Shown here: one piece after another, positions 7,504-24,297 of the stretch
Layout: each line of letters starts with the position of its first letter
Position numbering within the stretch: position 1 is the first letter of the stretch
NCBI RefSeq assembly: GCF_001697185.1
Contig: NZ_CP014224.1
Location: 558,001-622,000, forward strand
Direction: 5' to 3'
DNA length: 64,000 nt
Origin: Wenyingzhuangia fucanilytica
Lineage (GTDB): Bacteria; Bacteroidota; Bacteroidia; Flavobacteriales; Flavobacteriaceae
Translations under genes and position numbers: made by a program
Notes under the pieces: generated by a model
Databases searched by the model: none
What the model was told of the DNA's origin: nothing
The model's input: the letters and a program-made list of their open reading frames with translations, nothing else

Positions 7504-9708
7504 ATGGGCTATATAATTGATGCAGAAGCGGAAAATAAAGAAATTACGCGCAGGTATAAAGATCTTTTAAAAGATAGCTATCAGTATTTATCAGATGATG
7601 ATAAAAAATTGATACGTAAAGCTTTTGATGTAGCTGTAGAAGCACATAGTGAGCAACGAAGAAAAACAGGAGAGCCTTATATTTATCATCCTATTGCAGT
7701 AGCTAAATTGGTTGCTGTAGAAATAGGGTTGGGCGCAGTGTCTATTGCTGCTGCCTTGTTACACGATGTTGTAGAAGATACCGATTACACCATAGAAGAT
7801 ATGGAGCGTTTGTTTGGTGAGAAAATTGCCAAAATTGTAAACGGGTTGACAAAGATTTCTAGAATGAGTAAAGACCAAATGGCTTCTATTCAGGCAGAAA
7901 ACTTTCGTAAAATGTTGCTAACGCTAAATGATGATGTTCGTGTTATTTTAATAAAAATTGCAGATCGTTTACACAATATGCAAACGATGGATGCAATGCC
8001 ACCACATAAGCAAGTTAAGATAGCCTCAGAAACTTTATATATATATGCTCCTTTGGCTCATCGTTTAGGGTTGTTTAACATCAAAAGTGAGTTAGAAGAT
8101 TTAGGTTTAAAATATACTGAGCCAGAAGTTTATAATTCTATAGCTCAAAAAATCATTGCGAATAAGGACAATCAGTTAGATTATATAGAAAATTTTTCTT
8201 CTAAAATTAGTGAAGCTTTAGAAAGACAAGGATTTAATTTTGAAATTAAAGGAAGAACTAAATCTATTTTTTCTATCCGTAAAAAAATGCTTTCTCAAGG
8301 AGTAAAGTACGAAGAGGTTTACGATAAGTTTGCCATTCGTATTATATATGATTCCGTAGGAGAAAACGAAAAATTTGATGCTTGGAAAATATATTCTATT
8401 GTTACAGATAATTATAGACCTAATCCTAGTCGTTTAAGAGATTGGATTTCTCAACCTAAAACAACAGGGTACGAAGCTTTACATATTACTGTAATGGGGC
8501 CAGAAGGGCGTTGGGTAGAAGTACAGGTTCGTTCTAAAAGAATGAATGAGATTGCAGAAAAAGGATATGCTGCTCATTTTAAATATAAGCAAGGAGATAT
8601 TAACGAAAGTGGTTTAGAATCTTGGTTAAATAAATTAAAAGATACTTTAGAGAATCACAGTATGAATGCTGTGGATTTTGTAGAAGATTTTAAATTAAAC
8701 TTATATTCTAAAGAAATCTTTTTGTTTACTCCTAAAGGAGATATTAAATCTTTGCCAAAAGGAGCCTCTGCTTTAGATTTTGCTTTTAGTATTCACACAG
8801 ATGTAGGTCTAAAATGTAGAGGAGTAAAAGTAAACGGTAAGTTAACTCCGCTAGACAGGGTATTAAATAGTGGTGATCAGGTAGAGGTGATTACATCCGA
8901 AAATCAAAAACCATCAGAACGTTGGTTAACTTTTGTTGTTACAGCCAGAGCGAGAACAAAAATCCGTCAAGCCTTAAAAGAAGAGGAAAGAAAAGTAGCT
9001 GATTACGGACGTGAAGTTTTAAGAAGAAAATTACGTCATTTAAAAATTGAGCCAACAGACAAGAATTTAGGCTCAATGGTTAACTATTTTAAGCTTAAAA
9101 CAACTTTTGATTTATTTTATAGAGTAGGAGTTGGAACGATAGACAATACGCAAATAAGAAATTTTGCAAATCAGCAAACCAGTGCTTTTGCCAAATTGTT
9201 CCGTAGAACAAAATCTGATCCATCTAAAATAGAAAAGAAAGAAGTATTGTCTACCAATTATGATATGCTTCTGTTTGGAAATGATAACGAGCGTTTAGAA
9301 TATACCTTGTCTAAATGTTGTAATCCAATTCCGGGAGATAAAGTTTTTGGTTTTTTAACAGTAAATGAGGGAATCAAAATTCATAAAAACAATTGTCCAA
9401 ACGCCATCAGTATGCAGTCTAATTATGCCTACAGAATTATGAAGGCCAATTGGGTAGATTCAACCAAACAAGAGTTTAAAGTAACCTTAAGCATTACAGG
9501 TGAGGATAGCGCCGGAATGCTAGGAAATATAACAAGAGTTATTTCTAATAACAATCAAGTAAACATTAATAGTTTAAGTATTTCTGGAGACGGAAGCTTG
9601 TTCGAAGGAAAATTTACAATTACTGTTAATAACAAAAGTAAACTAAAAAAAATAACAGGGCAGTTACAAGGTGTAAAAGGGGTGAAGCGTATAAAACGTA
9701 TTATTTAA
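7504..9708 (+). CDS. relA: Bifunctional (p)ppGpp synthetase/hydrolase (Rel/SpoT homologue)
   Basis: The 734-residue long RSH protein makes and degrades the stringent-response alarmone (p)ppGpp. The HD hydrolase domain shows YIYHPIAVAKLV, LLHDVVEDTDY near residue 86 and IKIADRLHNMQTM near 152, so the hydrolase is intact. The synthetase domain follows, with KGRTKSIFSIRKKM near 250, DKFAIRIIYD and TGYEALHITVMGPEGRWVEVQVRS near 322. A TGS domain (IFLFTPKGDIKSLPKGASALDFAFSIH) lies near 400, a zinc-finger-like KCCNPIPGD near 603, and an ACT domain at the end. Its own -7 box is at 7477-7484. Long monocistronic RSH genes are normal in Bacteroidetes. Confidence 0.97.
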   Translation: MGYIIDAEAENKEITRRYKDLLKDSYQYLSDDDKKLIRKAFDVAVEAHSEQRRKTGEPYIYHPIAVAKLVAVEIGLGAVSIAAALLHDVVEDTDYTIEDMERLFGEKIAKIVNGLTKISRMSKDQMASIQAENFRKMLLTLNDDVRVILIKIADRLHNMQTMDAMPPHKQVKIASETLYIYAPLAHRLGLFNIKSELEDLGLKYTEPEVYNSIAQKIIANKDNQLDYIENFSSKISEALERQGFNFEIKGRTKSIFSIRKKMLSQGVKYEEVYDKFAIRIIYDSVGENEKFDAWKIYSIVTDNYRPNPSRLRDWISQPKTTGYEALHITVMGPEGRWVEVQVRSKRMNEIAEKGYAAHFKYKQGDINESGLESWLNKLKDTLENHSMNAVDFVEDFKLNLYSKEIFLFTPKGDIKSLPKGASALDFAFSIHTDVGLKCRGVKVNGKLTPLDRVLNSGDQVEVITSENQKPSERWLTFVVTARARTKIRQALKEEERKVADYGREVLRRKLRHLKIEPTDKNLGSMVNYFKLKTTFDLFYRVGVGTIDNTQIRNFANQQTSAFAKLFRRTKSDPSKIEKKEVLSTNYDMLLFGNDNERLEYTLSKCCNPIPGDKVFGFLTVNEGIKIHKNNCPNAISMQSNYAYRIMKANWVDSTKQEFKVTLSITGEDSAGMLGNITRVISNNNQVNINSLSISGDGSLFEGKFTITVNNKSKLKKITGQLQGVKGVKRIKRII

Positions 9709-11868: not shown

Positions 11869-13617
11869 ATGAAAAAAACATTAAAAATTTTATCATTAGC
11901 ACTTTTTGCGATTTCGTTTGCAAGTGCACAAACGGTAGGTGATACCTACACAGTAGGAGATTATGCTTACGAAGTTACAAGTGTAGCTCCTAATGAGGCG
12001 AAAGTAACAGGTTTTTCAGGTGCTTCGGTTTCATCAGTTGTGATTCCATCAACTGCTGAAGATACAGGTACTTCTACTACATATAGTGTGGTAGCAGTTG
12101 GAGCTAATGCTTTTGAAAGTGATGCAACTATTACAACTGTTAGTTTACCATCAAGTGTAACTACTTTGGAGGAGTTTGCATTCGGAACTGTATCTAATTT
12201 AACAACCATTAACCTAGATGATGTTGAAGTATTAGCCCTTAAAGCTTTTGTAGTTTGTGGTTCTTTGTCTGATGTTGGTAGTATGGAGAAAGTAATTAGC
12301 ATTGGAGACTATTGTTTTAACAGATGTACATCTATTACTGAATATACATTTTCTTCTACGTTAACTACTATTGGTACAGGAGCTATTTACAATTCAAGTG
12401 GTAATACTTTGCCAAATGTCGGGCCTGAAACGATTAATATTCCAAGCTCTGTAACAAGCATTGGAAATCTTAACTTAGGTGGATATGGTAATTTAGATGC
12501 TATTCAGGTAAATTGGACAACACCTTATAGTGCTGCAATTACTAATTTTGTTAGATATAAAGATCATTCAACCATTAAATTATTTGTTCCAGATGGGACA
12601 TTAGCAGCATATGAAGCTAGTGCCGTATGGGGTGGTTTTGATGTTGTAGAAGGTACTTTAGCAGACTACGTTCCTGTTTTAACAGTTGGAGATGGGTTTA
12701 CCGTTGGAGATTATAACTATACAATTACATCTCAAAGCCCTTATGAGGCGGAAGTAGCTGGAACCACAAATGCATCTTTAGCAGCAATAGTTGTTTCTTC
12801 TTCTGTTGTATATGGAGATGATACATATTCAGTAACAGCTATTGGAACTGATGCTTTTAAGGAAAATACAACTATTACTTCTGTTTCACTACCAAGTTCT
12901 GTTACTAAAATTGGTGAATCTGCTTTTTTACAAGCAACTAATTTAGCAACCATAAATACAGAGAATATTACAGAAATTGAAACCTCTGGATTAAGAGAAA
13001 CGGGTGTTTCTAGTCTAGATTTATCAAATTTAGTAACTTCGGGGTCTAACTGTTTAAGCCGTAACTATGGTTTAACAAGCTTAGATTTACCAGCAATACA
13101 AGAATTAGGAACTTATGTTTTTGTATTTAACAATAACATCACAAGTATTAAGTTGGGAGCCTCTGCAACTACTTTTTATAATACTTCTTTTAGTGGATTA
13201 CCAGGTTTAACATCTTTAGAGATGGCTGCAGAAACACCACCTACGTTACCAACACAAACACAAAGTCAGTCTACTACTTTGTCAAATGTTACGTTAATTG
13301 CTCCAACATCTGCTTCGGCAACAGCATATAGTAATGCTTCAGGGTGGAGTGACTTTGGAACGTTTACAGAAGCTGGTAGTTTAAGTAATGAACTTATTTC
13401 TGCTGCAGAATTTAATGTTTACCCTAACCCAGTAGAAGATGTAGTTACAATTCAGAATGTAGATGTTATTTCAGCATCAATTATAGGTGTTACAGGTAAA
13501 GTTGTTTTATCTGCAACTACAAATACTGTAGATTTATCTTCTTTATCTTCTGGAGTTTACTTATTAAAAGTTACTACAGATAATAATATTTATGTTGAGA
13601 GAATTATTAAAAAGTAA
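11869..13617 (+). CDS. BspA-like leucine-rich-repeat surface protein with T9SS sorting domain
   Basis: A 582-residue exported protein: signal peptide (LKILSLALFAISFASAQ), two homologous modules, and a Por-type C-terminal sorting domain. Module 1 starts near residue 23 (TVGDTYTVGDYAYEVTS) and module 2 near 268 (TVGDGFTVGDYNYTITS). Each continues into BspA-type repeats such as ITTVSLPSSVTTLEEFAF and ITSVSLPSSVTKIGESAF. The tail from about residue 512 (FNVYPNPVEDVVTI, GVTGKV, LSSLSSGVYLLKV) is a classic type A T9SS signal, so the protein should be moved across the outer membrane and anchored or released. LRR_5 proteins often bind host or polymer surfaces, but the ligand here is unknown. It is monocistronic and ends at a strong terminator. 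Confidence 0.92.
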   Translation: MKKTLKILSLALFAISFASAQTVGDTYTVGDYAYEVTSVAPNEAKVTGFSGASVSSVVIPSTAEDTGTSTTYSVVAVGANAFESDATITTVSLPSSVTTLEEFAFGTVSNLTTINLDDVEVLALKAFVVCGSLSDVGSMEKVISIGDYCFNRCTSITEYTFSSTLTTIGTGAIYNSSGNTLPNVGPETINIPSSVTSIGNLNLGGYGNLDAIQVNWTTPYSAAITNFVRYKDHSTIKLFVPDGTLAAYEASAVWGGFDVVEGTLADYVPVLTVGDGFTVGDYNYTITSQSPYEAEVAGTTNASLAAIVVSSSVVYGDDTYSVTAIGTDAFKENTTITSVSLPSSVTKIGESAFLQATNLATINTENITEIETSGLRETGVSSLDLSNLVTSGSNCLSRNYGLTSLDLPAIQELGTYVFVFNNNITSIKLGASATTFYNTSFSGLPGLTSLEMAAETPPTLPTQTQSQSTTLSNVTLIAPTSASATAYSNASGWSDFGTFTEAGSLSNELISAAEFNVYPNPVEDVVTIQNVDVISASIIGVTGKVVLSATTNTVDLSSLSSGVYLLKVTTDNNIYVERIIKK

Positions 13618-13637: not shown

Positions 13638-13676
13638 AAAGTCCGTATCAGTAATTACTGATACGGACTTTTTTTA
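13638..13676 (+). terminator. Terminator of the leucine-rich-repeat gene
   Basis: A perfect 34-base palindrome (13638-13671, half-site AAAGTCCGTATCAGTA) followed by Ts. It is among the longest perfect hairpins in the window. Confidence 0.9.
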
Positions 13677-15254: not shown

Positions 15255-16437
15255 TTTAAGAGAAGATTTTTTTAAACATCAAGCACAAACATCTCCTCAT
15301 CCATTAATGATAGAGGTTGCTAGTGCAAAAGGTTCTTATGTGTATGATGTACAAGGCAAGGCTTATTTAGATTTTATCGCTGGGGTTTCTGCCAATAGTT
15401 TAGGACACAATCATCCTAAAGTTTCTAAAGCCATCAAAGATCAAGTAGATACTTATACTCATGTAATGGTTTATGGAGAATTTGTACAACAACCACAAAC
15501 AGAACTTTGTAAGCTTTTGGTTGATTTATTACCCCAAAACTTGAATTCTGTGTATTTGGTTAACTCTGGAACAGAAGCCACGGAGGGAGCTTTAAAATTA
15601 GCCAAAAGAGTCACCAAAAGATCAGAGGTGATAGCCGCTAAAAATGCTTATCATGGAAATACACAAGGATCTATGAGTGTTTGTGGTGCAGAAGTGCAAA
15701 ACCGGGCTTTTAGACCTTTAATTCCGGGAACCAAATTTATTACCTATAACAAAGTAGAAGATTTGTCTAAAATCACCACAGATACTGCTGCGGTAATTTT
15801 GGAGACCATACAAGGAGGAGCAGGGTTTATAGTATCTCAAAATGGTTATTTAGAAAAAGTTCGTAAAAGATGTGATGAGGTTGGAGCATTGTTGATTTTG
15901 GATGAAATACAATCAGGAATAGGGAGAACAGGAACTTTTTTTGGTTTTGAACAATACAATTGTGTTCCAGACATAGTGATTACAGGAAAAGGTTTGGGAG
16001 GAGGAATGCCAATAGGAGCTTTTATTAGTAGTTATGAGCATATGAGTTTGTTAAAACAAAATCCTATGTTAGGACATGTAACTACTTTTGGAGGACATCC
16101 TGTTATTGCTGCTGCCGCTTTGGCAACAGTTAAAGAAATTACAGAAACCAACTTAATGCAAGAGGCTTTGCGTAAAGAACAATTGATTAAAGATTGTTTA
16201 CAGCACTCCGCTATCAAAGAAATTAGAGGAAAAGGACTAATGTTGGCTTTAATGATGGGAAATGCCACTATAGCAGCGGACCTTGTTTTAAAATGTATGG
16301 ACGAAGGTTTATTGTTGTTCTTTTTGTTGTTTGAAAAGAGAGCAGTAAGAATTAGTCCACCACTAACCATTTCTGACGAGGAAATTAAATTAGGTTGTGC
16401 TAAAATATTAAAGGTTATTGATGAGATTACCGCATAA
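15247..16437 (+). CDS. Class III PLP-dependent aminotransferase
   Basis: A 396-residue fold-type I aminotransferase. Landmarks are GVSANSLGHNHPKVSKAIKDQV near residue 45, the phosphate-binding SGTEATEGALKLAKR near 107, the metal-independent AYHGNTQGSMS, the Asp of LLILDEIQSGIGRTGTFF near 217, and the Schiff-base lysine in DIVITGKGLGGGMPIGAF near 248. This is the acetylornithine/ornithine/4-aminobutyrate group. The exact amino donor cannot be assigned. The start overlaps the OstA-like gene by eight bases, so the two are co-translated. No arginine-pathway genes are nearby, so argD is not supported. Confidence 0.9.
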   Translation: MTNLREDFFKHQAQTSPHPLMIEVASAKGSYVYDVQGKAYLDFIAGVSANSLGHNHPKVSKAIKDQVDTYTHVMVYGEFVQQPQTELCKLLVDLLPQNLNSVYLVNSGTEATEGALKLAKRVTKRSEVIAAKNAYHGNTQGSMSVCGAEVQNRAFRPLIPGTKFITYNKVEDLSKITTDTAAVILETIQGGAGFIVSQNGYLEKVRKRCDEVGALLILDEIQSGIGRTGTFFGFEQYNCVPDIVITGKGLGGGMPIGAFISSYEHMSLLKQNPMLGHVTTFGGHPVIAAAALATVKEITETNLMQEALRKEQLIKDCLQHSAIKEIRGKGLMLALMMGNATIAADLVLKCMDEGLLLFFLLFEKRAVRISPPLTISDEEIKLGCAKILKVIDEITA

Positions 16438-16471
16438 AAAAAGAGGATGAAATTTTCATCCTCTTTTTTTA
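16434..16471. terminator. Bidirectional terminator between the aminotransferase and LacI-family genes
   Basis: Stem GAGGATGAAA (16443-16452) with TTTCATCCTC (16454-16463), flanked by A- and T-runs. Its stem is nearly identical to the terminator at 22288-22325. Confidence 0.88.
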
Positions 16472-17488
16472 TTTTCTTTTTTGAGAAGATTGTCTTATAA
16501 TCAACTCAGTCCCTAAAGTTTTAGAATGTTCTGCTGGGGATTCGATTGTTTTTTTAATCAATTCAATTAATAATGAAGAGGCAATAATTCCCATTTCAAC
16601 ATCAGGTTGATTAACCGTTGTTAGACCAGGCTCGATTACTGCAGATATTGTGTCGTTGTTAAAACCAACAATAGCAATATCATCTGGTATTTTTAAACCT
16701 TCTTTTTTAAAGAATTGTATAGCACTAATGGCTGCCGTGTCATTAGAGGAATATATACCATCTACTTTTGGTAAGCTCAGTACTTTTTTAGCCAATTCAA
16801 TACCATCAGCTTCAGAAAGTTGAGACTCTAAAATATATTCTTCTCTAATCGGAATGTTATGATTTTTTAGGGCGGTAATATACCCTTGCATTCTTTGTTT
16901 ATAAAGTTCAATTTTTTGAAATCCAGAAAAGTGTACAATATCTTTACAACCATTTTTGATTAGGTGTTCTGTAGCTTTATAACTAGCATCAAAATCATCA
17001 ATACCAATGTTTGGCGTATCACCCATTACAATAGGTCTATCAAAAAAGACAATAGGTCCACCATTGTTTTTAAAATTATGTAAATGATCGTAATTAGTTG
17101 TTCCCATTGAAACAGAAATTAACAATCCATCTACACGGTTAGAAAGTAAGGTAGAAACCAGTTGTTGTTCCCTTTCAAAACTTTCTAAAGATTGTCCAAT
17201 AACTACATTGTATCCTGCTTTATAAGCGGTTTCTTCTATTCCTGAAATTACAGAAGAGAAAAAGTTTCTAGAAATTCTAGGTACAATAATACCAATAGTG
17301 TTGGTTTTATTGGTTCTTAAGTTAGAGGCTAAAATATTTTTTTGATATCCTAATTCAGCTGCTTTTTTCTGAATTAAGTCTTTTGTTTTTTGTGAAACTC
17401 TTGGACTATTATTCAGCGCTCTAGAGACAGTAGAACTGTTAATCTTTAGTGCTCTAGAAATATCATGAATAGTTGTCTTTTTTTTCAT
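16469..17488 (-). CDS. LacI-family transcriptional repressor, probably of the TRAP/kdu regulon
   Basis: A 339-residue LacI/GalR regulator. The helix-turn-helix is residues about 3-30 (TIHDISRALKINSSTVSRALNN), followed by the hinge region and a periplasmic-binding-protein-like effector domain (TIGIIVPRISRNFFSSVISGIEETA, then VDGLLISVS, DGIYSSNDTAAISAIQFFKKEG, TVNQPDVEMGIIASSLLIELI). The basal position downstream of dctPQM suggests it controls that operon and the divergent kduID genes. The likely operator is the 22-bp palindrome at 20525-20546, which has the central CG typical of LacI-family sites. The inducer is probably a ketodeoxyuronate or uronate; that is inference. Confidence 0.93.
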   Translation of the reverse strand: MKKKTTIHDISRALKINSSTVSRALNNSPRVSQKTKDLIQKKAAELGYQKNILASNLRTNKTNTIGIIVPRISRNFFSSVISGIEETAYKAGYNVVIGQSLESFEREQQLVSTLLSNRVDGLLISVSMGTTNYDHLHNFKNNGGPIVFFDRPIVMGDTPNIGIDDFDASYKATEHLIKNGCKDIVHFSGFQKIELYKQRMQGYITALKNHNIPIREEYILESQLSEADGIELAKKVLSLPKVDGIYSSNDTAAISAIQFFKKEGLKIPDDIAIVGFNNDTISAVIEPGLTTVNQPDVEMGIIASSLLIELIKKTIESPAEHSKTLGTELIIRQSSQKRK

Positions 17489-17513
17489 TTTAATTAGGGG
17501 GTATCTTAATGTA

Positions 17514-17560
17514 AAGTAAAACTAAAAATTATAAACATATTATAATTTTTAGTTTTACTT
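17514..17560. repeat. Perfect 21-base inverted repeat between dctM and the LacI gene
   Basis: Arms 17514-17534 and 17540-17560 with a five-base loop. Each arm has only two G/C pairs. It lies 24 bases after the dctM stop and 25 bases before the regulator start. There is no clean U-tract, so it may be a weak attenuator or an mRNA-stabilising or processing hairpin that sets regulator level below transporter level. It is unlike the 22-bp operator farther upstream. Confidence 0.8.
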
Positions 17561-17584
17561 AATTTATAAAGATAAAATAAGAGG

Positions 17585-18886
17585 TTAATTTAATAAACCA
17601 AATACACCTGGTAACCATAAACTTAAAGAAGGGAAATAAGTTACAAGGAATAAAGAAACTATCATGGCTAAAAATAAAGGCAATAATGGTTTGATAACTT
17701 TATCGATAGTAGTATTTGCAACTCCAATCCCTACAAATAGTACAGATCCTACAGGAGGAGTACATAATCCAATACTTAGATTTAAAACCATAATCATTCC
17801 AAAGTGAATTGGATCCATTCCTAAAGCTGTTACTACTGGTAAGAAAATAGGAGTAAAAATTAATACAGCAGGTGTCATATCCATAAACACTCCAACAAAT
17901 AATAATAAAAGGTTGATGATGATTAGAATAACAATTTTATTATCGCTAATTCCTAATAGTACATTACTAATATCTTGAGGAATGTTTTCAAAAGACATTA
18001 CCCATGACATACTCATAGAAGCTCCAATTAACAACATTACAATAGCTGTGGTACAAGAAGAGTCTAATAAAATTTCTGGTAAGCTTTTTAAGTTAATTTC
18101 TTTATAAATAATCCCTAAAAGGAATGTGTATAGCACCGCAATTGCAGAAGCTTCGGTAGCTGTAAAAACTCCTACTACAATTCCACCAATCACAATAATT
18201 AATAATAATAAACTAGGAACGGCATCAATAAAAGTTTTAAATACTTGTTTTAAAGTACTACGCTCTCCTAATTTATATCCTTTCTTTTTTGCCCAAAACG
18301 AAGCTACAAGCATTAAAAGTAATCCTGTTAAGATTCCAGGAACATACCCTGCTAAGAACAATGCGGCAATAGAAACACCACCACTAGCTAAAGAATATAC
18401 AATTAATACATTACTAGGAGGGATGATTAACCCAGTAGTTGATGAGGTAATATTTACCGCAGCTCCAAATTCTTTAGAGTATCCTTCTTTTTCCATTTCA
18501 GGACCTAAGATACTTCCCATTGCAGATGCAGATGCCATTGCAGATCCTGCAATAGCTCCCATAAGCATAGCTCCAATAACATTAATAAGTGCTAAACCAC
18601 CAGGTAAAGAACCTACTAATGTTTTGGCAAAAGCAATTAATCGATGGGCAATTCCACCTTTATTCATTAACTGTCCAGACAATACAAAGAAAGGGATTGC
18701 TAATAAAGAAAAACTATCTAATCCTGTTCCCATTCTTTGGGAAACAGTTGTTAATGCAGGCATCACAGGGATGCTTACCAACATTGTTAATACTGAAGAA
18801 ATGGCAATACTCCAAGCTACAGGTGTTCCGATGGTTAGTAAGATCAGAAAACTTACTACTAATACTAATTCTGGTAAAAATTCCAT
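17585..18886 (-). CDS. dctM: TRAP transporter large permease subunit DctM
   Basis: The 433-residue membrane subunit carries substrate across the inner membrane in symport with sodium ions. It has roughly 12 hydrophobic segments throughout (LVLVVSFLILLTIGTPVAWSI, then FSLLAIPFFVLSGQLMN, VIGAMLMGAIAGSAMASASAMG near residue 105, TGLIIPPSNVLIVYSLASGG near 150). These are the DctM family signatures. It is third in the operon dctP-dctQ-dctM with five bases to dctQ. A regulator follows after a long hairpin. The linked kduI and kduD suggest the substrate is a uronate or a breakdown product of acidic polysaccharides. Confidence 0.95.
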   Translation of the reverse strand: MEFLPELVLVVSFLILLTIGTPVAWSIAISSVLTMLVSIPVMPALTTVSQRMGTGLDSFSLLAIPFFVLSGQLMNKGGIAHRLIAFAKTLVGSLPGGLALINVIGAMLMGAIAGSAMASASAMGSILGPEMEKEGYSKEFGAAVNITSSTTGLIIPPSNVLIVYSLASGGVSIAALFLAGYVPGILTGLLLMLVASFWAKKKGYKLGERSTLKQVFKTFIDAVPSLLLLIIVIGGIVVGVFTATEASAIAVLYTFLLGIIYKEINLKSLPEILLDSSCTTAIVMLLIGASMSMSWVMSFENIPQDISNVLLGISDNKIVILIIINLLLLFVGVFMDMTPAVLIFTPIFLPVVTALGMDPIHFGMIMVLNLSIGLCTPPVGSVLFVGIGVANTTIDKVIKPLLPLFLAMIVSLFLVTYFPSLSLWLPGVFGLLN

Positions 18887-18891
18887 AATAT

Positions 18892-19350
18892 TTATGATCT
18901 TAAAAGGTCTGTAATTTTATAATAAATAATTAATGCTCCACTTACAGGAATTACTGCGTATACAAAAGCCAGTGGTATTTGTAATGCTGGAGAGGTTTGT
19001 CCAAGTAAAAAACTAATGTATACCAATCTTAATCCACCAACAACCATGGCAGCAAAAGCAAAAAGTATCACTAAAATAAAAACTAATATTCTTAATTTTT
19101 TTTGAGTAGCAGGACCTGTTTTTAAAGGAACTACATCAATAGCAACATGCATGTTTCTACCCGATACATATGCAGCACCTAAAATTCCGACCCAAATCAT
19201 TAAGTATCTAGATAATTCATCCGTAAAAGAACTAGGAGATCCGATGACAAATCTTGAAAATACTTGCCATAACACATTAATAACCATCAATCCCATGATA
19301 ATCGTTAAGGCAGTACCTAGTGTTTTATCTATTTTTTTTCTTAATTCCAT
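18892..19350 (-). CDS. dctQ: TRAP transporter small permease subunit DctQ
   Basis: A 152-residue membrane protein with four hydrophobic segments (TALTIIMGLMVINVLWQVFSRFV, YLMIWVGILGAAYVSG, ILVFILVILFAFAAMVVGG, IPLAFVYAVIPVSGALIIYY). The motif SSFTDELSRYLMIWVGILGAA is diagnostic of DctQ. It pairs with DctM to form the inner-membrane part of the tripartite transporter. The gene starts one base after the dctP stop and ends five bases before dctM, so the operon is tightly coupled. Confidence 0.95.
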   Translation of the reverse strand: MELRKKIDKTLGTALTIIMGLMVINVLWQVFSRFVIGSPSSFTDELSRYLMIWVGILGAAYVSGRNMHVAIDVVPLKTGPATQKKLRILVFILVILFAFAAMVVGGLRLVYISFLLGQTSPALQIPLAFVYAVIPVSGALIIYYKITDLLRS

Positions 19351-19351
19351 T

Positions 19352-20332
19352 TTACTTCGTGTTTTTAATTCGTTGAATTAATTTATAAACTTCAGGGTCT
19401 TTTTTTACTTCATCATAAATAGGAGTTACCATATCAGAGAATAAAGTTTTGTCAGGTCTAATAATTTTAACTCCTGCTTTTTCAACTTCAGTAAGGGCTT
19501 CTTTTTCGGCTTCTAACCAAAGTTCTCTTTGATACTTCACAGAGTTTTTGATAGCTATTTTAACCCATTCTTTTTCTTGTTCGGTTAAAGCATCCCAAAA
19601 GTGAGTACTTCCTACAAGAATGTCTGGAACTACAGTGTGTTCATCTAAGGTGTAATTTTTACAAACTTCGTAATGTCTAGATAAATAAAAAGAAGGAGGA
19701 TTGTTTTCAGCTGCATCCACCACTCCTTGTTGTAATGAAGTGTATAATTCTCCCCATGAAATAGGTGTTGGAGAACCACCAAGACTACGAACCATATTCA
19801 TGGCACTAACACTTTCCATCACACGTATTTTTAATCCTTTTAAATCTTCGGGAGAGTGAATAGCTTTGTCTTTGCTATAAAAACTTCTACTTCCAGCATC
19901 ATAATATCCTAAACCTTTTAACCAAAACTGAATTCCATCATCTAATAATTCTTGACCAATTTCACCGTCTAATACATTAAAAGTATGTTCGCGATCTCTA
20001 AATAAATAAGGCAATCCTAATACTTTCATTTTAGGCGCAAAATTCTCTAAAACCGCTGCAGATACTTTAGTCATTTCTAAACTACCAATTTGTAGTAACT
20101 CTAAACATTCTCTTTCTGTTCCAAGTTGTTGACTAGGATAGACATTAATTTTTAATGTTCCGTTTGATAATTTGTATAAATCATCACTCATTTTAAGCAT
20201 GGCAATATGAACTGAGTGCTTTGTATCTAAACCATGAGCTAGTTTAATGGTTTTGGTTTTTTTTGTTAATTCATTACATCCGAATAATAGTGGAATGAAA
20301 AACAAACAATATAAGATTGTTTTAAGTCGCAT
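19352..20332 (-). CDS. dctP: TRAP transporter substrate-binding lipoprotein DctP
   Basis: A 326-residue solute-binding protein of the TRAP (DctP/SiaP) family. It has a lipoprotein signal peptide ending in the lipobox LLFGC (Cys near residue 19), so it is probably anchored rather than free. Family signatures include LAHGLDTKHSVHIAMLKMSDDLYKLSNG, VYPSQQLGTERECLELLQIG, LKGLKIRVMESVSAMNMVRSLGGSPTPISWGELYTSLQQGVVDAAENN near residue 165; the Arg in KIRVM is the usual carboxylate anchor. This supports an organic acid such as a sugar acid as substrate. The predicted promoter is at 20504-20533, giving an mRNA leader of roughly 165 bases. Confidence 0.95.
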   Translation of the reverse strand: MRLKTILYCLFFIPLLFGCNELTKKTKTIKLAHGLDTKHSVHIAMLKMSDDLYKLSNGTLKINVYPSQQLGTERECLELLQIGSLEMTKVSAAVLENFAPKMKVLGLPYLFRDREHTFNVLDGEIGQELLDDGIQFWLKGLGYYDAGSRSFYSKDKAIHSPEDLKGLKIRVMESVSAMNMVRSLGGSPTPISWGELYTSLQQGVVDAAENNPPSFYLSRHYEVCKNYTLDEHTVVPDILVGSTHFWDALTEQEKEWVKIAIKNSVKYQRELWLEAEKEALTEVEKAGVKIIRPDKTLFSDMVTPIYDEVKKDPEVYKLIQRIKNTK

Positions 20333-20503: not shown

Positions 20504-20533
20504 CAAATGTATAATTTTATTTCTACAATACAA
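20504..20533 (-). promoter_or_regulatory. Promoter of the dctPQM operon
   Basis: On the minus strand a TTG (20533-20531) is followed after 19 bases by TACATTTG (20511-20504), fitting TTG-N19-TAnnTTTG. Its -33 element lies inside the 22-bp palindrome. Confidence 0.6.
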
Positions 20534-20546
20534 TCGATTGTATTGT
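20525..20546. promoter_or_regulatory. Perfect 22-bp palindrome, probable LacI-family operator for dctPQM and kduID
   Basis: Half-site ACAATACAATC followed by its exact complement GATTGTATTGT, with the central CG pair typical of LacI-family operators. It covers the -33 elements of both divergent promoters (20504-20533 minus; 20538-20566 plus), so one bound dimer could block both. The regulator gene lies at the end of the dct operon. Confidence 0.75.
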
Positions 20547-20566
20547 GTTTTTTTTTACTACTTTTG
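20538..20566 (+). promoter_or_regulatory. Promoter of kduI-kduD
   Basis: TTG at 20538-20540, 18 bases, then TACTTTTG at 20559-20566, a full TAnnTTTG match. Expected transcription start is near 20572, about 20 bases before the kduI ATG. The -33 element is inside the palindrome. Confidence 0.65.
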
Positions 20567-20594
20567 CTAGCATTAAAATTAATATAGCAAACGT

Positions 20595-21437
20595 ATGAAA
20601 CAGAATATTGAAACTAGATATGCAGCTTCTCCAAGAGAGGTAAAACAGATGGATACTCAAGGATTAAGAGATGAATTCTTAGTAGAGGATTTGTTTACTG
20701 AGGACAATGTTAAATTGGTGTATTCTCATTATGATAGATATGTTATAGGAGGGGTTTCACCAGTAAACAAAGCGATTTCTTTAGAAACGATAGATCAGTT
20801 AAAGTCTTCTTACTTTTTAGAAAGAAGAGAGTTAGGAGTTATAAACGTTGGTGAAGCAGGATCTGTTAGTGTTGATGGTCAAGTATATGAACTAGGACAC
20901 AAAGAAGCTTTATACATTGGAAAAGGAAATAAAGAAATTATTTTCTCAAGTAAGTCTTCTAGTAACCCAGCACTTTTTTATATCAATTCAACTCCAGCAC
21001 ATAAAACTTATCCAACTAAAAAGATTGGTTTAGATGATGTTGAGGTAGTAGAGTTAGGTACACCAGAAACTAGTAATGCTAGAACCATTCGTAAGTATAT
21101 TGTAAATAGTGTGGTTGATGTATGTCAATTACAAATGGGGATGACTACTTTAAAATCTGGAAGTGTATGGAATACTATGCCAGCTCACGTTCATGATAGA
21201 AGAATGGAAGTTTATTTCTATTTAGATGTACCACAAGACCAAGCAGTATCTCATTTTATGGGAGAGCCAACAGAAACAAGACATGTTTGGATGGCAAATC
21301 ATCAAGCAATCATTTCTCCACCATGGTCAATTCACTCTGGAGCAGGAACTTCATCATATACTTTTATTTGGGGTATGGCTGGTGAAAATCTTGATTATGG
21401 AGATATGGATGTATGTGCAATAAACGAATTACGATAA
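20595..21437 (+). CDS. kduI: 5-dehydro-4-deoxy-D-glucuronate isomerase KduI
   Basis: The 280-residue cytosolic zinc isomerase interconverts 5-dehydro-4-deoxy-D-glucuronate (4-deoxy-L-threo-5-hexosulose uronate) and 3-deoxy-D-glycero-2,5-hexodiulosonate. That substrate arises spontaneously from unsaturated uronates released by polysaccharide lyases and unsaturated glucuronyl hydrolases. The cupin fold and zinc site are visible: TMPAHVHDRRMEVYFYLDVP near residue 195 (His, His, Glu) and PPWSIHSGAGTSSYTFIWGMAGEN near 241 (fourth ligand His). The N-terminal ETRYAASPREVKQMDTQGLR is also diagnostic. It starts under an operator-controlled promoter and is followed by kduD after 26 bases. Confidence 0.97.
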   Translation: MKQNIETRYAASPREVKQMDTQGLRDEFLVEDLFTEDNVKLVYSHYDRYVIGGVSPVNKAISLETIDQLKSSYFLERRELGVINVGEAGSVSVDGQVYELGHKEALYIGKGNKEIIFSSKSSSNPALFYINSTPAHKTYPTKKIGLDDVEVVELGTPETSNARTIRKYIVNSVVDVCQLQMGMTTLKSGSVWNTMPAHVHDRRMEVYFYLDVPQDQAVSHFMGEPTETRHVWMANHQAIISPPWSIHSGAGTSSYTFIWGMAGENLDYGDMDVCAINELR

Positions 21438-21463: not shown

Positions 21464-22255
21464 ATGTCAAAACAATTGTTTGATTTAACAGGGAAAGTAG
21501 CTCTTATCACAGGAGCAACTCATGGTTTAGGTATGGCTATGGCTAAAGGATTAGGGTTTGCAGGAGCAACTATTGTTGTTAACGGAAATTCGTCACAAGA
21601 AAAATTAGATACTGCAGTAGCAGCATACAAAGAATTGGGATTAAATGCTCATGGATATTTGTTTGATGTAACTAATGAAGAGCAGGTTATAGCAAGTGTA
21701 AAAAAGATTGAAAAAGAGGTTGGTGCTATTGATGTTTTGGTAAATAATGCTGGAATTATAAAGAGAACTCCTTTGGTAGAAATGGAGGTAGCAGATTTTA
21801 AACAAGTAATAGATGTAGATTTAGTATCTCCTTTTATTGTTTCTAAAGCTGTAGTACCAGGAATGATTGAAAGAAATAGCGGGAAAATTATTAACATTTG
21901 CTCTATGATGAGTGAGTTAGGAAGAAATTCTGTAGGAGCATATGCAGCTGCCAAAGGTGGATTGAAGATGTTGACTCAAAATATGGCTACAGAATGGGCT
22001 AAGTTTAATATTCAAACCAATGGGATTGGGCCAGGATATTTTGCTACAAGCCAAACAGCTCCTATTAGAGTAGAAGGAAACCCTTTTAACGATTTTATTA
22101 TAAGTAGAACGCCAGCAGGAAAATGGGGAGACCCAGATGATTTACAAGGAGCAGCTATTTTCTTAAGTTCTAATGCAAGTAACTTTATTAATGGTCAGGT
22201 ATTATATGTTGATGGAGGAATTTTAGCTACTATTGGTAAACCATCAAACGAATAA
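21464..22255 (+). CDS. kduD: 2-dehydro-3-deoxy-D-gluconate 5-dehydrogenase KduD (short-chain dehydrogenase)
   Basis: A 263-residue short-chain dehydrogenase. The Rossmann motif is ITGATHGLGMAMAKGLG near residue 16, NNAG is near 92, the catalytic Ser lies in NICSMMSELG and the Tyr-Lys pair in YAAAKGG near 160. In this operon it should reduce 3-deoxy-D-glycero-2,5-hexodiulosonate with NAD(P)H to 2-keto-3-deoxygluconate, following KduI. Cofactor choice cannot be decided from the sequence. The downstream enzymes KDG kinase and KDPG aldolase are not in the window, although a ROK kinase is next on the other strand. Confidence 0.93.
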   Translation: MSKQLFDLTGKVALITGATHGLGMAMAKGLGFAGATIVVNGNSSQEKLDTAVAAYKELGLNAHGYLFDVTNEEQVIASVKKIEKEVGAIDVLVNNAGIIKRTPLVEMEVADFKQVIDVDLVSPFIVSKAVVPGMIERNSGKIINICSMMSELGRNSVGAYAAAKGGLKMLTQNMATEWAKFNIQTNGIGPGYFATSQTAPIRVEGNPFNDFIISRTPAGKWGDPDDLQGAAIFLSSNASNFINGQVLYVDGGILATIGKPSNE

Positions 22256-22287
22256 ATAAGTTAATCTTTTTAAATTAAGTGTTTTAT

Positions 22288-22325
22288 AAAAAAAGAGGAT
22301 GATTATTTCATCCTCTTTTTTTGTT
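22288..22325. terminator. Bidirectional terminator between kduD and the ROK gene
   Basis: Stem GAGGATGA (22295-22302) with TCATCCTC (22308-22315), flanked by A- and T-runs. The stem matches that of the terminator at 16434-16471 on the other side of the cassette. Confidence 0.88.
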
Positions 22326-23448: not shown

Positions 23449-24297
23449 ATGGCAAGTATTCAAGAGCTAAAAGATTTTACACAACAAGTAAGAAGAGATA
23501 TTTTACGTATGGTTCATGCTGTGAATTCAGGACATCCAGGAGGATCATTAGGGTGTGCGGAATATATTACAGTGTTGTATCAAGAAATTATGAAGCACAA
23601 TGCTGAGAAATTTGACATGGATGGAAAAGATCAAGATTTGTTCTTTTTATCTAATGGACATATTTCTCCAGTTTTTTATAGTGTATTGTCTCGTAGCGGA
23701 TATTTTCCAGTATCTGAATTATCGACTTTCCGTTTGCTAAATTCTAGATTACAAGGACATCCAACTACTCACGAAGGTTTAGAAGGAATTCGTATCGCAT
23801 CTGGTTCTTTAGGACAAGGAATGAGTGTTGCTCTTGGAGCAGCTCAAGCTAAAAAATTAAATGGTGATGATCGTTTGGTATATAGCTTACACGGTGATGG
23901 TGAGTTACAAGAAGGTCAAAACTGGGAAGCAATTATGTATGCTGCTGCTAAGAAAGTAGATAATTATATTGCTGCGGTTGATGTTAACTTAAAACAAATT
24001 GATGGTACAACTGATCAGGTTTTACCAATGGGATCTATTAAAGCTAAATTTGAAGCTTTTGGATGGGAAGTTTTAGAGGTTAAAGAAGGAAATGATATCG
24101 AAGCAATTATTGCAGGTTTAAAGAAAGCTCAATCTTTAACAGGTAACGGAAAACCAGTTTGTATTTTATTATATACAGAAATGGGTAACGGAGTTGATTT
24201 TATGATGCACACTCACGCATGGCACGGTAAAGCACCAAATGATGAGCAATTAGAAAATGCATTGGCTCAAAATCCTGAAACTTTAGGAGATTATTAA
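23449..24297 (+). CDS. Transketolase, N-terminal (thiamine-diphosphate-binding) subunit
   Basis: A 282-residue protein covering only the N-terminal TPP-binding third of transketolase. Landmarks are HAVNSGHPGGSLGCAEYITVLY near residue 23, FLSNGHISPVFYS, GHPTTHEGLEGIRIASGSLGQGMSVALGAA near 103 and the TPP/metal motif YSLHGDGELQEGQNWEA near 144. Split transketolases work as an alpha2-beta2 complex in the non-oxidative pentose phosphate pathway. The gene for the C-terminal (pyrimidine-binding) half normally follows at once. Here a terminator and an unrelated minus-strand gene follow instead, so the partner must be elsewhere or outside the window. The promoter is a full consensus match. Confidence 0.93.
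   Translation: MASIQELKDFTQQVRRDILRMVHAVNSGHPGGSLGCAEYITVLYQEIMKHNAEKFDMDGKDQDLFFLSNGHISPVFYSVLSRSGYFPVSELSTFRLLNSRLQGHPTTHEGLEGIRIASGSLGQGMSVALGAAQAKKLNGDDRLVYSLHGDGELQEGQNWEAIMYAAAKKVDNYIAAVDVNLKQIDGTTDQVLPMGSIKAKFEAFGWEVLEVKEGNDIEAIIAGLKKAQSLTGNGKPVCILLYTEMGNGVDFMMHTHAWHGKAPNDEQLENALAQNPETLGDY

Follow-up and report, generated by a model that had tools for sequence, protein, structure and literature searches.

The region between dctP and kduI in Wenyingzhuangia fucanilytica holds a palindrome that overlaps two divergent candidate promoters, which raises the question of which protein reads it and with what effect on the genes at either side. The Flavobacteriaceae include numerous species that break down the polysaccharides of algae and plants. 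To our knowledge, few operators have been mapped in the phylum Bacteroidetes. Comparison of genomes indicates that the palindrome is very probably where a LacI-type switch protein for uronic-acid sugars binds. The window is the whole 64-kb stretch of DNA that was analysed, and coordinates are window positions except where another locus or contig is named.

Genes of the unit

The unit is composed of two divergent arms, with dctP, dctQ, dctM and lacI in that order on the minus strand and kduI followed by an SDR gene on the plus strand. kduI (20595..21437) encodes 5-dehydro-4-deoxy-D-glucuronate isomerase (NF002091, 451.4 bits, cut-off 250). The SDR (21464..22255) is a gluconate 5-dehydrogenase per NCBIfam (NF005488, 454.5 bits, cut-off 369). 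The first-pass annotation had taken it for KduD, a name that the models do not bear out. The protein is below the KduD-model cut-offs (TIGR01832, 229.9 vs 338.85), and since it passes the gluconate 5-dehydrogenase cut-off and fails the KduD ones, "kduD" is a role guess.

On the minus strand, dctP (19352..20332; PF03480, TIGR00787) encodes the solute-binding protein of a TRAP transporter, dctQ (18892..19350; PF04290) the small permease, and dctM (17585..18886; PF06808, TIGR00786) the large permease. The lacI-family gene (16469..17488; PF00356, PF00532, PF13377) encodes the regulator that is the predicted palindrome binder, from its co-occurrence with the site. The annotation had placed lacI last on the dct side. 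This stands as to position, but co-transcription with dctM would have to pass a 96-nt gap (17489..17584, minus strand) with a strong hairpin that separates the two genes. The hairpin has a 21-bp stem, an MFE of -24.2 kcal/mol and a z of -7.95; similar stems are visible by eye, unfolded, in the congeners G001 and G003. It may lower lacI expression or separate it from that of the transporter genes.

The whole lacI-dctMQP-kduI-SDR unit is framed by a pair of terminator-like hairpins that are nearly identical, one of 39 nt at the lacI end (16434..16472, plus strand) and one after the SDR gene (22286..22324, plus strand). Both are taken from the terminator part of a sigma-70 promoter scan, the promoter part of which is unsuited to this phylum. 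Beyond the unit, at 23449-24297, a 282-aa ORF matches transketolase models in their N-terminal part alone.

The regulator has the layout of the LacI/GalR family, an N-terminal LacI HTH followed by a periplasmic-binding-protein-like effector domain (PF00356, 40.8 bits, cut-off 27; PF00532, 119.6; PF13377, 102). The motif [SAP]STVSRAL, which we take to be the recognition helix, is present in 49/49 members of its similarity cluster. ASxLR, presumably the hinge with the hinge leucine, is present in 48/49, with AANLR in the remaining one. The protein appears to be one of a group of flavobacterial regulators of uronate genes.

The palindrome in the dctP-kduI intergenic region

A perfect 22-bp palindrome with a central CG, ACAATACAATCGATTGTATTGT, lies at 20525..20546, flanked by the dctP start on the minus strand (20332) and the kduI ATG on the plus strand (20595), as the first-pass annotation had described. 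It has no strand, is the predicted LacI-family operator, and contains a core, TACAATCGATTGTA (20529-20542), that is found across family genomes. Section 9 of PMC4052901 describes most LacI motifs as palindromes of even length, 16-22 nt, around a central CG, a form that the site has at its 22 bp and that agrees with the earlier claim about LacI operators in general.

The length by itself proves little, because perfect palindromes of at least 22 bp are also present in 8/60 first-order Markov windows of 64 kb; such a length is not rare in 64 kb. The evidence for the palindrome is its position and its conservation. The conserved part is 14-18 bp, and the outermost AC/GT pairs of the 22-mer are absent in G001 and G003. 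No other place in the 64-kb window is within 3 mismatches of the palindrome, and 0/100 shuffled windows held any match within that distance. Two longer perfect palindromes are present in the window, one of 34 bp at 13638-13671, just past an ORF end at 13617, and one of 24 bp at 2620-2643.

Co-occurrence of the site and lacI

The exact core TACAATCGATTGTA was searched in 397 family genomes, and orthologous lacI was called at E<=1e-95. Each is present in 46/397 genomes: 38 have both, 8 lacI only, 8 the site only, and 343 neither. The Fisher test of site against lacI, which ignores the kinship of genomes, gives p 3e-37, and p 1e-34 after the three own-genus genomes are dropped. The reversed control pattern is found in 8/397 genomes, 0 of which have orthologous lacI. 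All 8 lacI-only genomes carry the 18-mer with 1-2 mismatches beside lacI. The exact sites number 64 in lacI-positive genomes and 9 in lacI-negative ones, and their placement differs. Sites lying deeper than 10 bp within a called ORF make up 8/64 in the former vs 7/9 in the latter; the counts are 4/64 vs 7/9 at more than 60 bp and 0/64 vs 6/9 at more than 150 bp.

Site presence follows orthologous lacI and not kduI. Within a 239-genome draw, 78 genomes are kduI-positive, and the exact core is present in 25/27 of those with lacI vs 1/51 of those lacking it. The same contrast is found at the kduI loci themselves, 29 of 30 kept loci having been scanned whole (3.8 kb) with the window's own excluded. 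The best 18-mer match has 0-2 mismatches at all 16 loci from genomes with orthologous lacI and 4-6 mismatches at all 13 from genomes without it. The sole kduI-positive, lacI-negative genome with the core is G036, in which the site and kduI are on different contigs. This exact core lies between genes, at 55 bp from one for a TonB receptor (L133, about 6002), and is one of two sites outside ORFs in lacI-negative genomes; the best LacI match in G036 is only 46% identical. The G036 site might be real, with another reader of the site possible there.

In a class-wide sample of 345 genomes, LacI matches at E<=1e-78 and >50% identity were found only in the own genome, G148 and G453. G453 is from another family and has a 54%-identical LacI and 3 exact cores, one of them just upstream of lacI. 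Apart from this genome, no LacI relative outside the family exceeds 47% identity, and the palindromes seen at such loci are different ones. The core is present in 11/345 genomes of the class and the reversed control, by table reading, in 9, so that the core in the other 8 genomes is at chance level. The site upstream of predicted target operons is thus conserved together with the regulator; the pairing is correlative, among genomes related by descent.

Conservation of the site at kduI

The first-pass annotation had set conservation upstream of orthologous operons in advance as a test on which its reading could fall, and the core recurs at kduI across genera. In the congeners G001 and G003, an 18-bp perfect palindrome lies between the same two genes, dctP and kduI. 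In G002, G004, G008 and G009, lacI is divergent from kduI with the 18-mer between them, and the fetched stretches of these four genomes hold no dctPQM match beside lacI/kduI. In G027, the core is upstream of kduI and a gene of a GH88-type cluster is opposite. Whether dctP, lacI or a GH88-type gene is opposite, the palindrome therefore keeps its place at kduI, and it is the divergent partner that differs; across the sites, the gene opposite kduI may also be a sensor-kinase gene.

G402 and G090 have the same outer change in both half-sites (AATCCAATCGATTGGATT), and G182, G363 and G367 have an outer change in one half-site only. The matching change in G402 and G090 is what a symmetric dimer would be expected to favour.

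Candidate divergent promoters at the site

In the Bacteroidetes, TTG usually lies about 19 nt upstream of the -7 box TAnnTTTG. Toward kduI, the candidate -33 element is the TTG at 20538..20540 (plus strand) in the right half-site, followed after an 18-nt spacer by the -7 box TACTTTTG at 20559..20566 (plus strand). Toward dctPQM, the candidate -33 TTG is at 20531..20533 (minus strand) in the left half-site, and a 19-nt spacer leads to the -7 box TACATTTG at 20504..20511 (minus strand), a box also found at +24 in G001 and G003. Both -7 boxes fit TAnnTTTG, the consensus taken from PMC6847099. The earlier claim that both divergent -33 TTGs fall inside the palindrome is borne out by these boxes and their 18- and 19-nt spacing, and the sigma-A promoter consensus of the phylum is matched on both strands, with transcription starts that are predicted only.

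According to section 14 of PMC6847099, the -7 box of Flavobacterium johnsoniae spans -12 to -5, and a strong -7 element is accompanied by a -33 element that is "much less evident". The promoter claim is consequently weaker for the TTGs than for the -7 boxes. If the -7 box is -12 to -5 here as well, transcription would start near 20571 (plus) and 20499 (minus), and the palindrome centre would be some 36 bp upstream of each predicted start.

The same geometry was followed across genomes at 65 of the 75 exact sites in fetched loci, 9 having been dropped as deep in ORFs and 1 as being at a contig edge. TAnnTTT(A/G) starts +21 to +27 from the centre in 58/101 directions with a called gene start, and in equal control windows in a mean of 1.75 and a maximum of 5. 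The stricter TAnnTTTG is found in 31/101 (control mean 0.39, maximum 3). Box position peaks at +24, so that the TTG of the half-site falls near -33 and the spacer is 19 nt. The looser box was also counted at +20 to +28. At 37 sites flanked by a gene start on each side, it is present on both at 19, on one at 13 and on neither at 5; at 28 sites with a gene start on one side or none, it is present in the gene's direction at 9. Given 19/37 two-sided sites and 9/28 others, the double -33 arrangement is found mainly at divergent promoters, chiefly that of kduI, and is not regulon-wide; some operators are placed other than at -33.

A further step would be that the half-sites are themselves the -33 elements. 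Each strand would present an ATTG that contacts both polymerase and regulator, the bound dimer would bar a two-way core promoter, and this arrangement would have been kept across the Flavobacteriaceae despite the change of partner gene. This proposal is tentative, and we hold it with more doubt than confidence. The recurrent geometry ties a regulator to the core promoter in Bacteroidetes.

The broader idea that LacI operators generally double as -33 elements in Bacteroidetes was considered and found unsupported. At paralog loci, the box at +21 to +27 is near control, on 3/30 strands (15 sites) vs 1/30 in the control window. A larger enrichment around non-identical sites, 22/80 strands vs a control of 4, includes variant sites of the same orthologs.

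Proposed mechanism

The observed site, consensus double-promoter geometry, conservation, co-occurrence with lacI and gene content elsewhere make it most probable that the LacI-family uronate repressor encoded at 16469-17488 controls both kduI-SDR and dctPQM from a single operator. We infer binding, repression, a ligand and the action of a single dimer on both sides as follows. In the absence of inducer, a LacI dimer would sit on the palindrome. Centred some 36 bp before each predicted start, the dimer would keep RNA polymerase off kduI-SDR and dctPQM. The inducer is probably a uronate breakdown product, and candidates are 5-keto-4-deoxyuronate, 2-keto-3-deoxygluconate or a hexuronate. Its binding would free both promoters and, via dctPQM-lacI, possibly the regulator's own gene too. 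The LacI-operator reading of the first-pass annotation is supported by conservation, by the tracking of orthologous lacI and by the recurring double -33 geometry.

There is a small chance that the same LacI binds the site and activates, or activates one side and represses the other, as the sign of regulation is unreadable from sequence. The weak -33 element of Flavobacterium (PMC6847099, section 14) would suit a bound protein that helps polymerase. Against activation, the predicted centre at about -36 is over the promoter itself, and at 14/29 of the sites unlinked to lacI or kduI the called start codon stands 2-64 bp away from the centre, which suits repression. Moreover, LacI-family sugar regulators are mostly repressors.

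It is very unlikely that another regulator, a LacI paralog or a member of another family, reads the palindrome and has been co-inherited with lacI. Such a reader has room in the data, in that there are several LacI relatives per genome (7 matches in the own genome), related operators with CAA/TTG arms exist, and the intergenic site of G036 occurs without a lacI ortholog. Paralog loci do carry other central-CG palindromes, such as TTCAAACGTTTGAA and TGCAAACGTTTGCA, but all 15 CAAnCGnTTG palindromes at these loci are at least 2 positions off the core. Site presence also tracks the lacI ortholog across genera, and the site is between lacI and kduI wherever these adjoin.

That the palindrome is a chance feature, as the 8/60 simulated windows could suggest, or is kept only since the promoters need a TTG on each strand, is almost certainly wrong: chance is rejected by the 0/100 shuffles, the co-occurrence with lacI and the absence of the site from the inspected kduI loci without lacI, and promoter symmetry alone by unlinked, one-sided sites at genes with no divergent partner.

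Predicted regulon

The exact sites in genomes with orthologous lacI would outline the regulon of this LacI. The 64 sites in lacI-positive genomes are distributed as 24 between kduI and lacI, 9 at kduI with another partner or none, 2 at lacI and 29 elsewhere. Sites at lacI/kduI are thus 35/64, and all of the other 29 adjoin a uronate or polysaccharide gene. The neighbours of these 29 were classed by their own Pfam hits or those of the representative of their similarity cluster (single linkage, 45% identity, 70% length). dctP accounts for 7/29, as do GH88-type genes, one of which (L120) is classed by cluster, its own Pfam match being absent. TonB receptors account for 5/29, KdgK-like PfkB kinases for 3/29, uxaC for 2/29, and a GH28 gene and a DUF2264 gene for 1/29 each. 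Polysaccharide-lyase genes make up 3/29, one of the heparinase II/III type and two PL8. At 3/29 sites (L159, LuxE-like; L108; L161), a second gene, unrelated or unscanned, starts opposite.

By gene content, this is a uronate regulon, and in having a predicted regulon of uronate catabolic genes the regulator is like the hexuronate regulators of the KdgR/UxaR/UxuR type in Bacteroidetes. Some other genomes have more exact sites than W. fucanilytica.

Relation to known systems

Passages of PMC3878776 and PMC4052901 describe predicted LacI-family regulons in Bacteroides for KdgR (BT0487), UxaR (BT0824), UxuR (BT1434) and UxmR (BT3613). The present case is like these in its regulator family, its basis in comparative genomics and its hexuronate pathways in Bacteroidetes. 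They differ in host, being from gut Bacteroides, and the likeness is one of regulator family and pathway.

Algoriphagus belongs to another lineage of the Bacteroidetes phylum. UxuR2 of Algoriphagus marincola, as presented in parts of PMC5507952, is a LacI-family regulator with predicted galacturonate/glucuronate loci and the TRAP transporter UxuPQM-II. It is alike in being a uronate regulator tied to a TRAP transporter, although kduI is unmentioned in those parts of PMC5507952, and the likeness is one of gene content. An Algoriphagus LacI (L188) is 45% identical to the window LacI, a figure that does not imply equivalence to UxuR2.

The pectin PUL of Gramella flava is a flavobacterial locus in which exuR, named as a hexuronate repressor, is annotated along with kduI, kduD, uxaC, kdgK and a TRAP-type transporter (PMC5306329, in part). 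The combination of kduI, TRAP-type transporter and hexuronate repressor is shared, the repressor of W. fucanilytica being a predicted one. The locus is known by annotation, and the parts of PMC5306329 describing it give neither an operator nor the family of exuR.

The site is like the operators of E. coli LacI, PurR and GalR in being an even palindrome with a central CG that goes with a hinge leucine, here in ASxLR. Unlike them, it is combined with Bacteroidetes -33/-7 promoters, and one palindrome covers both divergent -33 positions.

In a full-text search, with subscription papers, figures, supplements and regulon databases aside, the letters of the 14-mer and 18-mer were not found; those of the 12-mer occur once, in a plant retrotransposon paper. 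A description of the site was not found in titles, the starts of abstracts or passages of text, with the same four kinds of source aside. The type of system, LacI-family hexuronate regulators of Bacteroidetes, is already known, and the site and the predicted regulon appear to be a new member of it. For a uronate regulator of the LacI family in Flavobacteriaceae, they offer a defined operator that can be tested and a regulon predicted across multiple genomes.

Other sites and paralogs in W. fucanilytica

The exact 14-mer core occurs once in the W. fucanilytica genome, and the 18-mer with up to 3 mismatches has 10 matches there (9 outside the window) vs 6 for the control. With a single exact core and a near-control count of near-matches, the local regulon looks small on sequence grounds. 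A likely second target is G000:C1:2294891-2294908, with the core ACAATCGATTGTA and, read by eye, TATATTTG at +24. The gene there starts 63 bp from the centre of ACAATCGATTGTA and encodes a secreted protein with ricin-type lectin and T9SS sorting domains (L050 7892-7964, ORF 7964-9511), the N-terminal domain of which has no Pfam match. Among 199 genomes searched, one other has a homolog of this lectin-domain protein (52%).

A second kduI copy, at G000:C1:896875-897702, is 66% identical and has no exact core. Genes of the kdgA-kdgK type adjoin a 40%-identical LacI paralog, with a palindrome of its own, TTGTTCAAACGTTTGAACAA, between them (L185 1259-4507; G000:C1 about 2894258-2897506). Uronate catabolism in W. 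fucanilytica seems to be split between two LacI regulators.

G101 has two LacI genes of the regulator's similarity cluster, the second of which is divergent from genes of the uxuB/uxuA/uxaC type, as classed by cluster, with the differing site AACGCAATCGATTGCACA (L113 5465-10001). This is possibly a duplicated regulator with a shifted site preference.
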